Origin: Burkholderiaceae bacterium
GTDB taxonomy: Bacteria; Pseudomonadota; Gammaproteobacteria; Burkholderiales; Burkholderiaceae_E
NCBI GenBank assembly: GCA_024643785.1
Contig: JAHEMI010000003.1
Location: 1-50,196, forward strand
Length of the DNA stretch: 50,196 bases
Direction: 5' to 3'
Shown here: piece after piece, positions 7,940 to 23,334 of the stretch
How positions within the stretch are numbered: the stretch's first letter is position 1
Layout: each line of letters begins with the position of its first letter
Made by a program: the position numbers and the translations under genes
Notes under the pieces: model-generated
What the model saw: the letters and a program-made list of their open reading frames with translations, nothing else
What the model was told of the DNA's origin: nothing
Databases searched by the model: none

Positions 7940-9076
7940 TCACTGCACCCGCCGCACCACGACGCAGCCGATCGAATAGCCGGCGCCAAACGAGCAGATC
8001 ACCCCGATATCACCGGCGGCCAGACCCTCGCGGTTGCGATGGAAGGCGATGATCGAGCCCGCCGAGGCGGTGTTGGCGTATTCGTCGAGGATCACTGGGG
8101 CACGTTCCGGTCCGGGATCGGCGCCCAGCAACTTGCGGGTAATGAACAGGTTCATGTTCAGGTTCGCCTGGTGCAGCCAGTAGCGCGCGACCGAATGCGG
8201 CTCGATGCCCAGTTGCGTCAGGTGCCCGCCGATGTGTTCGACCACCATCGGGCAGACTTCCTTGAACACCTTGCGGCCTTCCTGCACGAAGAGCTGGTCG
8301 TGGGCGTTGCGGTCGACCTCTTCGCAGCGCCCCAGGAACCCGGCGTTGTTGCGGATGTTGTTCGAGAACTTGGTCGCCAGTTTGGTGCCGAGGATGTCGA
8401 AGCGTTCGCTGACCTTGGCCTTGGCGGCGTCCTCGACCACCACCGCGGTGCAGACGTCGCCGAAAATGAAGTGGCTGTCGCGGTCGCGCCAGTCGAGGTG
8501 CGCCGAGGTGATTTCGGGGCTGACCACCAGTGCCGCGCGCGAGGTGCCGGCGCGGATTGCGTTGGCGGCCTGCTCGATGCCGAAGGTCGCCGACGAGCAG
8601 GCGACGTTCATGTCGTAGGCATAGCCCGAGGCGCCCAGCGCCTGCTGCAGTTCGATCGCCATCGCGGGGTAGGCGCGCTGCATGTTGGCGCAGGCGATGA
8701 TCACCAGGTCGATGTCGGCGGCTTCGCGCCGGGCCATCGCCAGGGCGTCGCGCGCCGCTCCCAGGGCGATCTCGACCTGCAGCGACATTTCCTCGTTGGG
8801 GCGGGGGGCAAAGTACGGGCGCATCCGCGTCGGGTCGACCACGCCGCGGCGATCGAGGACATAGCGCTGGCGGATTCCCGAGGCTTTCTCGATGAACTCG
8901 ACGTTCGAGGGCTCGAGGGCGACCGCCTCGCCGCGACTGATCGCGGCGGCATTGCGCGTGTTCTCGAGCTCGACGTACTCGTTGAACGAAGCCACCAGTT
9001 CATCATTGGTAATGACGTCGGGGGCGTTCCACAGGCCGGTGCCGGTGATGGCTGCAACGACAGGGCTAGGCGTCAT
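7940..9076 (-). CDS. beta-ketoacyl-ACP synthase III-like (FabH family)
   Basis: MTPSPVVAAITGTGLWNAPD...; Cys in MNVACSSATFG, His in WLHQANLNM, Asn in YANTASAGS; start trimmed to 9076. Confidence 0.88.
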   Translation of the reverse strand: MTPSPVVAAITGTGLWNAPDVITNDELVASFNEYVELENTRNAAAISRGEAVALEPSNVEFIEKASGIRQRYVLDRRGVVDPTRMRPYFAPRPNEEMSLQVEIALGAARDALAMARREAADIDLVIIACANMQRAYPAMAIELQQALGASGYAYDMNVACSSATFGIEQAANAIRAGTSRAALVVSPEITSAHLDWRDRDSHFIFGDVCTAVVVEDAAKAKVSERFDILGTKLATKFSNNIRNNAGFLGRCEEVDRNAHDQLFVQEGRKVFKEVCPMVVEHIGGHLTQLGIEPHSVARYWLHQANLNMNLFITRKLLGADPGPERAPVILDEYANTASAGSIIAFHRNREGLAAGDIGVICSFGAGYSIGCVVVRRVQ

Positions 9077-9198
9077 GGTGCTCGGTACTCCCGGAAATGC
9101 TGGCGCCGCTGCCGGGACTCTGGCTGCCCCGACGCTGGCATGGGCGCCCATTGTACGGCAGCAGGTCGGTGGAATCCTTACGGATGGAGGTGATTCCT

Positions 9199-9237: not shown

Positions 9238-10461
9238 TCAGGAAAGGCGGCAGAACCGGGCGGTATCACCGGCGATCATCATTTCCTCGTCGGTCGGTAT
9301 GACCCAGGCTTGCACCCGCGACGCTTGCGTGGTGATGCGCACCGCCGCCGACCCGTCGCAGGCGCGGTTGGCCGCCAGGTCTGGCGTGACACCGAGCCAG
9401 TCCAGCCCGGCCAGAATGCGTTCGCGAATCGGCGCCGCGTGCTCGCCGATGCCGCCGGTGAAAACGATCCCGTCGATGCCCTCCAGCACGGCCGCGAGCG
9501 CACCAATTTCGCGCCGGACGCGGGCCACGAAGAAGTCGACCGCTTCCCGCGCGCCAGTGGTGGTGCTCGCCAGCAGCCGACGCATGTCGGCGCTCACCCC
9601 GGAGAGTCCCTTCAACCCCGACTCGCGATAGAGCAGGTCGGCCAGTCCGGCCGCGTCGAGTCCGTCGTTTTGCATCAGCCACAGCAGCACGCCGGGGTCG
9701 ATGCTGCCGCAACGCGTCCCCATCGGCAGGCCGTCGAGCGGCGAGAACCCCATGGTCGAACTCACCGAGCGTCCGGCGCGCAGGGCGCACAACGAGGCGC
9801 CGTTGCCCAGATGGGCCAGCACCGTGCGGCCCTTGGCGAGGACGGGCGCGACCAGCGGCAGTTGCGAGGCGATGTACTGGTAGGAGATGCCGTGGAAGCC
9901 GTAGCGGCGAATGCCCCGCTCGTAATAGGAGCGCGGCAGCGCGTAGACGTCTTCGACAAAATCGTGGCTGCGATGGAAGGCGGTGTCGAAGCAGGCCACC
10001 TGCACGGCCTGCGGAAAGGCGCCGCGTGCCGCCCTGATCCCGGCGAGGTTGTGCGGCTGGTGCAACGGCGCCAGCGGCGTCAACGCATCTAGTTGTGCCA
10101 GGACGCCTTCGTCGACCACGGCCGGGGCGCTGTATTGCGCGCCGCCATGGACCACGCGGTGCCCGACGCCGCGCACCGCCATGGCGGGCACCGCTTCGTG
10201 CAATGCCGCCAGCGCATGTTCGAGCGCGCCCCGGGGGTCGGCCACCAGGCCCAGGTCGCGCGGCGCCATGAGTTCGCCACGGCGCCCGTCACGCACCTGC
10301 AGCGAAGCGGAGCCGCCCGCCCCGTCGACGTCGCCGCGCACCACCAGGCGCAGGGGAGCGCCGGGGTCGTTCTCCCCCGGCGCGCCAGTCGCCGCGATTT
10401 CGAAGAGCGCGAACTTGAGCGACGAGGACCCGGCGTTCAACGTCAGCAGGTGCCCGTTCAT
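9238..10461 (-). CDS. ackA: acetate kinase
   Basis: MNGHLLTLNAGSSSLKFALFE; RYGFHGISYQYIA; LAHLGNGASLCA; IVFTGGIGEHAAPIRE. Confidence 0.96.
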   Translation of the reverse strand: MNGHLLTLNAGSSSLKFALFEIAATGAPGENDPGAPLRLVVRGDVDGAGGSASLQVRDGRRGELMAPRDLGLVADPRGALEHALAALHEAVPAMAVRGVGHRVVHGGAQYSAPAVVDEGVLAQLDALTPLAPLHQPHNLAGIRAARGAFPQAVQVACFDTAFHRSHDFVEDVYALPRSYYERGIRRYGFHGISYQYIASQLPLVAPVLAKGRTVLAHLGNGASLCALRAGRSVSSTMGFSPLDGLPMGTRCGSIDPGVLLWLMQNDGLDAAGLADLLYRESGLKGLSGVSADMRRLLASTTTGAREAVDFFVARVRREIGALAAVLEGIDGIVFTGGIGEHAAPIRERILAGLDWLGVTPDLAANRACDGSAAVRITTQASRVQAWVIPTDEEMMIAGDTARFCRLS

Positions 10462-11912
10462 AGGCCGGCGCCGTCCTGGTCGATGACCTCCGCTGGCGCG
10501 GCCGGAGCCTTCACCGCCGTGACGCCGGTCTTGGTCCAGTGGACGTAGAGGTGGGCCAGCGCGCACGACATCAGCCGGCTCTGCGCATCGTCGGCCCGGC
10601 TGGTCAGGATGATCGGCACGCTTGCCCCCAGTACCAGCCCGGCGGCCAGTGAACTGGCCACGAAGGTGAGTTCCTTGGCCAGCATGTTGCCGGCTTCCAT
10701 GTTGGGGACGATCAGCACCTGGGCATGGCCGGCAACCAGTGACTGGATTCCCTTGGAGCGGGCCGCCGCCAGGTTGACGGCGTTGTCCATCGCCAGCGGA
10801 CCGTCGACGATGCCGCCGACGATCTGGCCGCGCTCGGCCATCTTGGCCAGCACCGCGGCATCGATCGTCGAGGGGATGGCGGGGTTGACGGTTTCAACCG
10901 CCGAGAGGATTCCCACCTTCGGCACTGCGATCCCGCAGGCGCGCGCCAGGTTGATCGCGTTCTGGGTGATGTCGGCCTTGGCGGCGAGGTCGGGGGCGAT
11001 GTTGATGGCCGCGTCGGAAATGAACAGCGGATGTTCGAGTCCGGGAGTGTCCATCACGAACACATGGCTGATCCGCCGGCCGCTGCGCAGCCCGCCGTCG
11101 CGGCGCACCACTTCGGCAAGCATCACGTCGGTGTGCAGGTGGCCCTTCATCAAGGCCTGGACCTTGCCTTCGCGCGCCATCCGGACCGCCGCTGCCGAGG
11201 ACGCAAAATCGCTGTCGGCATCGATGCGCTGGAATTGCGCCAGGTCCGCTCCGAGGCTCGCCGCGGCAGCGTCGACGCGCCGCCGGTTGCCAATGAGCAC
11301 GGGCTCGATCAGCCCCGCGGCGTGGGCGCGCAGCGCGCCCTCCAGCGCCTGTGGTTCCTCCGGGCAGATGACCGCCATCGCGATCGGCTTGAGCCCGGCG
11401 CAGGATGCCACCAGGCGCTCGCAGTGGCGATGCTTGCGCAGCATTATTCCGGGCGCCTCGAGGCGCACATCGGTGACCTTGTGCAAGGGCGCGAACACTT
11501 CGGCGAAGCCGTCGGCCACCAGGTCGCCGGAGCTCTTGACCACGCGGGTCTCGAGGATGATCAGTTGCGGCTCGCGCTTGTCGATCACCTCCACTGAAAC
11601 TTCCACTTCGTCGCCGACCCCGACCCGGGCATGGAAGTTCAACGACTGCGAGCGGTAGAGAGTTCCCGGACCGGGTAGCGTGGTTCCCAGCAAGTTGGCG
11701 ACGAGAGCCGCGAACCACATCGATGGCGCGACTGCGCCGCCCTTGACTTCGCCTTGGCCGAGGCCGGGTTCGTCGGGCAGGTGCAGCGGATTGAAGTTGC
11801 CGGTGACGCTCGCGAACAGGTAGAGATCGTGCTCGGTGCAGACACGGTCCATCGACACCCGGTCGCCGACCTTGATCTCGTTGAACAGCTTGTTGGAAAC
11901 GACGATTTCCAT
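10458..11912 (-). CDS. bifunctional enoyl-CoA hydratase (MaoC-like)/phosphate acetyltransferase (PTA_PTB)
   Basis: N-terminal MaoC domain (FASVTGNFNPLHLPDE) fused to a phosphotransacylase domain (KGHLHTDVMLAEVVRR...DAAINIAPDL); 4-nt ATGA overlap with ackA. Confidence 0.93.
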   Translation of the reverse strand: MEIVVSNKLFNEIKVGDRVSMDRVCTEHDLYLFASVTGNFNPLHLPDEPGLGQGEVKGGAVAPSMWFAALVANLLGTTLPGPGTLYRSQSLNFHARVGVGDEVEVSVEVIDKREPQLIILETRVVKSSGDLVADGFAEVFAPLHKVTDVRLEAPGIMLRKHRHCERLVASCAGLKPIAMAVICPEEPQALEGALRAHAAGLIEPVLIGNRRRVDAAAASLGADLAQFQRIDADSDFASSAAAVRMAREGKVQALMKGHLHTDVMLAEVVRRDGGLRSGRRISHVFVMDTPGLEHPLFISDAAINIAPDLAAKADITQNAINLARACGIAVPKVGILSAVETVNPAIPSTIDAAVLAKMAERGQIVGGIVDGPLAMDNAVNLAAARSKGIQSLVAGHAQVLIVPNMEAGNMLAKELTFVASSLAAGLVLGASVPIILTSRADDAQSRLMSCALAHLYVHWTKTGVTAVKAPAAPAEVIDQDGAGL

Positions 11913-11923
11913 GGCTTCACCCA

Positions 11924-11947
11924 GACTAGATTATATTTAATATAGTC
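11924..11947. promoter_or_regulatory. imperfect 24-bp AT-rich palindrome containing a minus-strand TATAAT
   Basis: GACTAGATTATATTTAATATAGTC, about 12 nt upstream of the MaoC-Pta ATG; minus strand reads TATAAT. Confidence 0.5.
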
Positions 11948-11973
11948 TTAATGATAGCAAAATCAGAGCAGTT

Positions 11974-11990
11974 TTGCTGCTATGCAGCAA
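11974..11990. promoter_or_regulatory. 17-bp perfect palindrome TTGCTGC-TAT-GCAGCAA (PhaR-box-like operator)
   Basis: Read directly; matches the CTGC-N3-GCAG pattern reported for PhaR; lies upstream of the MaoC-Pta gene. Confidence 0.5.
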
Positions 11991-12001
11991 CGAGAATATG
12001 G

Positions 12002-12607
12002 TTATTGTTCGGGCGCCGGATTGGGCCTGGTGTGCAGCTTCATGGTCGCCGCGGCGAACTCCCCGGCCAGCATGTCGGGCAGGATCCCGAGCGCACGGTT
12101 GATCTCGTCGACGATCAGGCTCATTTCCTCGAGCCGCGGGGAGTGCAGCACGTAGTCGGCCACGTCCTGTTCGGCCTGGACGTCACGCGGGTGGCCGATT
12201 CCCAGGCGCAGGCGCCAGAAGTCGGGGCTTCCGAGGTGGGACTGGATGTCGCGCAGGCCGTTGTGGCCAGCGTGTCCGCCGCCGCACTTGAGCTTGGACT
12301 GCCCGGGGGCGAGGTCGAGCTCATCGTGGATAACGAAGATTTCGGCGGGTTCGATGCGGTAGAAATTGGCCAGTGCGGCCACTGCGCGCCCGGAACGGTT
12401 CATCAGCGTTCCCGGCTTGAGCAACCAGAACGACTTGCCGCGCAGGTTGGAGCGCGCAATCTCGCCATGGAACTTGGCTTCGCTGGCGAAGCTGGCACCG
12501 GTCAGCCGCGCCACGCCGTCGGCGAACCAGAAACCGGCGTTGTGACGCGTGTACTGGTACTCCCGGCCAACGTTGCCGAGACCAACTATCAGGCGGATGG
12601 CGGACAT
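12002..12607 (-). CDS. pth: peptidyl-tRNA hydrolase
   Basis: [51 protein letters not shown]. Confidence 0.96.
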
Positions 12608-12628
12608 CGCGGCGCGCTGTAATCGATG

Positions 12629-12659
12629 CGTGCCCGTCGCGTGCGAGGCGACGGGCACG
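12629..12659 (-). repeat. 12-bp perfect hairpin between rplY and pth
   Basis: CGTGCCCGTCGC / GCGACGGGCACG with 7-nt loop; no U-tract. Confidence 0.7.
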
Positions 12660-23280: not shown

Positions 23281-23334
23281 GGGCCGGTCTATGTTGCATC
23301 GAAGCAATGGTTTGCCCGACCCGCCAGGGAGGAC

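Follow-up and report, generated by a model that had tools for sequence, protein, structure and literature searches.

A perfect 17-bp palindrome lies in the short gap between pth and the gene for a bifunctional MaoC-type enoyl-CoA hydratase/phosphotransacylase (maoC-pta) of a Burkholderiaceae bacterium, and it raises the question of whether acyl-phosphate metabolism in this organism is controlled by PhaR, the regulator that responds to PHB. Combining the 50,196-nt stretch of contig JAHEMI010000003.1 that was analysed (here called the window) with the remainder of the genome and with orthologous loci from other genomes, this analysis points, with a probability of about 0.8, to an operator for the host PhaR, which would repress a maoC-pta/ackA/fabH-like unit until relieved by PHB. 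From such sequence comparisons we infer the binding, its sign (repression), the extent of the operon and its metabolic purpose.

The palindrome and the genes around it

The palindrome, TTGCTGCTATGCAGCAA, consists of 7-bp arms (TTGCTGC and GCAGCAA) around a 3-nt centre (TAT), and a reading of the sequence bears out the first-pass annotation, which had described it in these terms. The gap that holds it is 89 nt long and is bounded by two genes on the (-) strand (Table 1). The order pth-maoC-pta-ackA-fabH-like is common to all four genomes of the genus, although in G033 it is spread across two contigs. With gene order as the one basis, the FabH-like gene would be co-regulated with maoC-pta.

Table 1. 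Features of the pth/maoC-pta locus, in window coordinates
Feature	Position	Strand	Remarks
pth (aminoacyl-tRNA hydrolase)	12002..12658	(-)	upstream gene; its end (12002) bounds the gap
PhaR-box-like operator (putative)	11974..11990	(-)	5'-TTGCTGCATAGCAGCAA-3' on the coding strand of the downstream genes
Putative -10 hexamer TATCAT	11951..11956	(-)	TGC just upstream (extended -10); from alignment, spacing 17 nt in 4/4 genus genomes
AT-rich inverted repeat AGACTA-N14-TAGTCT	11923..11948	(-)	from alignment; in 3/4 genus genomes, missing in G016
Bifunctional MaoC-type enoyl-CoA hydratase/phosphotransacylase	10458..11912	(-)	start (11912) bounds the gap; NF006045 'bifunctional enoyl-CoA hydratase/phosphate acetyltransferase'
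Acetate/propionate family kinase (ackA)	9238..10461	(-)	start overlaps pta stop (ATGA)
FabH-like beta-ketoacyl-ACP synthase III	7940..9151	(-)	NF005703

Taken alone, the core of the palindrome carries no weight. The 11-mer CTGCN3GCAG occurs twice in the window against an expected 2.2, and it was rejected as standalone evidence because that frequency is at chance level. This, together with the use of 7+7 palindromes by many regulators, is what favours a chance palindrome or the operator of another dimeric regulator with a PhaR-like site, an explanation that is nonetheless judged quite improbable, since the palindrome matches two phasin boxes in the same genome as well as published consensuses, is enriched at a specific position before orthologues in several families, and co-occurs almost universally with PhaR. 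What lifts the palindrome above chance is its conserved position and the enrichment of the motif in different taxa. In a genome-wide ranking of boxes that drew on a pattern search and 185 kb of genome sequence, the full 17-mer was found as a single copy in the 2.66-Mb genome (pattern search), with only two copies elsewhere at one mismatch or fewer, one of which falls within a gene for acyl-CoA dehydrogenase. That near-match (C118:10281; L048:10281-10297), one mismatch away, was considered as a phasin/pha site and set aside as probably chance, given its place within a coding region. The window also has a GCAG at 11968-11971, with N5 and CTGC after it; the overlapping GCAG-N5-CTGC arrangement that the first-pass annotation had read into it finds no support, as the extra half-site is absent from the three other genus genomes and is therefore probably due to chance.

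PhaR and PhaR-consensus boxes in the same genome

The genome encodes one PhaR (PF07879, E=1.3e-30; C174:24157-24336), directly 3' of phaB in a phaC-phaB-phaR cluster, and one phasin gene was detected with the Phasin_2 model. When the promoters of these genes were searched for the motif, two boxes were found at the phasin gene and one at phaC. The phasin promoter reads TTGTTGCGTCGCACCAA, then TTGACA...TAAAAT, then TTGTTGCGTCGCACCAT, such that two PhaR-consensus boxes flank the -35 and -10 elements; both are also present in G025 and in G016, one being degenerate in the latter. At the phaC promoter, which reads TTGACA-AATAT-TTGCCGCAATGCAAAAT, the box falls mostly within the -35/-10 spacer; G016 and G025 have the same box. 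For G033, the short phaC locus held no box and no phasin was detected.

The PhaR consensus of Ralstonia eutropha is YTKNTGCRNYGCANMAR, with up to three mismatches allowed (PMC12849132). The phasin and phaC boxes depart from it by zero to two mismatches, and also resemble the Sinorhizobium meliloti motif (PMC12542648). The pta palindrome agrees at 16 of 17 positions, its single mismatch lying in the central triplet, where TAT departs from R-N-Y on one side, as it does in two relatives. On a scoring matrix derived solely from phasin and phaC boxes in the genus, the pta box (17.6) is like the phaC box (17.4) and well below the host phasin boxes (24.7-25.9). The known PhaR/AniA phasin operators of R. 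eutropha, S. meliloti, Bradyrhizobium and Paracoccus are likewise 17-bp palindromes with a TGC-N3-GCA core and T/A-rich ends, and their hosts, too, have PhaR, phasin and phaC. Those operators lie at promoters, and the site described here would lie at a putative one; it differs from them in having one central position off R-N-Y and in that its target is an acyl-phosphate operon rather than a granule protein.

Two further sites were seen along the way. On the (-) strand of the window at 23291-23307, approximately 60-75 nt upstream of ptsN, is a degenerate PhaR-like box (TTGCTTC-RNY-GCAACAT) that is kept in three of the four genus genomes and whose centre varies only within R-N-Y; among the listed PhaR targets of S. 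meliloti is manX (PTS EIIA) (PMC12542648). A candidate PhaR site, the intergenic TAGGTGCAATGCAGCAA at L049:14642-14658 (G000:C168:28641-28657), precedes, by about 110 nt, a gene whose putative product is an ABC-transporter substrate-binding protein.

Conservation within the genus and the probable sign of control

All four genus genomes carry a pta box in the same place in the gap (TTGCTGCATAGCAGCAA, TTGCTGCAAAGCACCAT, TTGCTGCAAAGCAGCAT and TTGTTGCAGCGCACCAA). Upon alignment, the TGC...GCA and the outer TTG/CA are constant and each arm varies at its fourth position, which is also variable among PhaR boxes generally. These changes bear on whether the palindrome might act as RNA, i.e. as a hairpin, terminator or 3'-end stabilizer of the pth mRNA. 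Its stem of 7 bp, which folds at -8.9 kcal/mol on the (-) strand, would be in keeping with such a role, but there is no U-run past the stem, and the sole stem found by a terminator scan is a different, shifted one. Moreover, the arms in relatives change on one side only, the 17-mers folding at -3.7 and -1.5 kcal/mol versus -8.2 here, and the PhaR-consensus positions stay conserved while the stem weakens. Because these stem-breaking changes are better explained by a protein site on DNA, and with neither compensatory changes nor a U-run, the hairpin or terminator was rejected on the basis of fold and conservation, and it is the least probable of the readings weighed, with hardly any weight left to it.

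Between the box and the -10 element the bases diverge among the genus genomes, and the distance from the end of the box to a conserved TATCAT/TATCCT is exactly 17 nt in all four. A hexamer scan of the gap found no classical -35/-10 pair, and TATCAT would mark a putative promoter of the extended -10 type, with transcription predicted to start about 7 nt past the hexamer. Just downstream of TATCAT, the inverted repeat at 11923-11948 has hardly changed in three genomes amid neighbouring bases that diverge, and it reads AAGACTA...TAGTCTT in two relatives; it is probably a part of the promoter or leader, and might act as a second operator or form a hairpin in the leader.

The gap has one conserved promoter-like element only, and the box lies over its -35 zone, so that control is most likely by repression that PHB relieves. 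As long as no PHB surface is free, PhaR would sit on the palindrome, overlapping the -35 region of the maoC-pta/ackA/fabH-like promoter and keeping the unit down; nascent PHB granules would then take up PhaR, the site would empty, and the unit would be expressed. In carbon surplus, its products might convert acyl-CoA to acyl-phosphate and on to carboxylate plus ATP, as an overflow during storage. PhaR is known as a repressor of phasin genes that blocks RNA polymerase there and leaves the DNA as PHB granules form (PMC12849132), and the proposed repression agrees with the phaR mutant of Bradyrhizobium diazoefficiens, in which pta (blr3457) and two ackA paralogues are up (PMC10888616). The box might instead occupy an activator position, as the -35 is poor and PhaR is able to activate. 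That PhaR binds the palindrome and activates the operon, or fine-tunes it with another factor, is unlikely. It would suit a box whose centre lies near -38 relative to the putative promoter, a poor -35 hexamer, and the fixed 17-nt box-to-(-10) spacing in four genomes that have no recognizable -35, and R. eutropha PhaR does activate phaP3 (PMC12849132). On the other hand, mutation of phaR in B. diazoefficiens raises rather than lowers pta and ackA (PMC10888616), and the host phasin and phaC boxes are on or beside -35/-10 elements, as is typical of repressor sites.

Recurrence in other lineages and the possible reach of the PhaR regulon

Among 20 full-length orthologues from the same family outside the genus, none has the box before maoC-pta. 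A second set comprised 80 orthologues from named genomes, mostly Alphaproteobacteria and including one genus member. Across the 236 kb upstream of these genes, the published consensus at one mismatch or fewer gave five matches, none of them more than 185 nt from the start, versus zero for the reversed consensus. The 15-bp inner motif TKNTGCRNYGCANMA, at one mismatch or fewer, placed a box within the final 250 nt at 15 of the 80 loci, the mean for the remaining 250-nt bins being 0.37 matches. Of 1500 palindromic column permutations, not one came to 15 loci, although near-identical ones that keep the core reached 14. Cultivated bacteria that carry a box include Roseibium aggregatum and Skermanella aerolata. 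With the Roseibium clade removed, boxes remained at 6 of 68 loci, a number matched by 3 of 2520 permutations, the motif itself included. In other families of the Burkholderiales, the box is found in the last 250 nt of 6/19 orthologues and in the next 750 nt of 0/19, and the real motif ranks best of all 2520 permutations. The orthologue sets behind these counts are non-independent samples, with several loci coming from one genus or family. The S. meliloti consensus at two mismatches was too loose for clear enrichment. Upstream of orthologous genes, the box is thus seen in the genus (4/4), other Burkholderiales (6/19) and the named-genome set (15/80), but not in the rest of the family (0/20). 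The proposal of the first-pass annotation that the palindrome is a PhaR site is, in turn, supported by the phasin and phaC boxes, by conservation in the genus and by recurrence, with the 20 boxless family members counting against it.

The regulator itself accompanies the enzyme. PhaR is present in 23/23 good-quality Burkholderiales genomes that have MaoC-pta compared to 75/117 that do not (Fisher p=1e-4, uncorrected for kinship). Absence of PhaR was uninformative as a negative control for the presence of a box, 73 of 74 MaoC-pta genomes having PhaR.

The link between PhaR and pta is partly known from one earlier report on B. diazoefficiens, where blr3456-blr3459 (pta blr3457, ackA blr3458) contains a PhaR-repressed pta-ackA, the direction being as proposed here (PMC10888616). 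That system differs in that blr3456 comes first, before pta, and in that the boxes predicted there follow a loose GC-N3-GC motif; the blr3456 promoter was outside the set of promoters tested by EMSA (PMC10888616). In S. meliloti, the PhaR regulon reaches past the pha genes to sites in central carbon metabolism (zwf, gltA, ppdK, manX and panC), the main text making no mention of pta or ackA (PMC12542648). In the literature searched, no earlier report was found of the recurrence of the box before MaoC-pta across two classes. The comparisons made here provide independent support for a PhaR-pta link from several lineages, and there is about an even chance that PhaR control of MaoC-Pta/AckA is a recurrent element of the PhaR regulon, perhaps an ancestral one, in Alpha- and Betaproteobacteria, with acetyl/acyl-phosphate formation as a direct PHB-responsive output. 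The PhaR regulon, which is usually described by way of phasins and pha genes, would then extend to acyl-phosphate metabolism, and polymer status would be tied to acetyl-phosphate signalling and ATP supply. Given that acetyl-phosphate is both a source of ATP and a phosphodonor for response regulators, a PHB sensor could thereby let the state of storage affect both energy and signalling.
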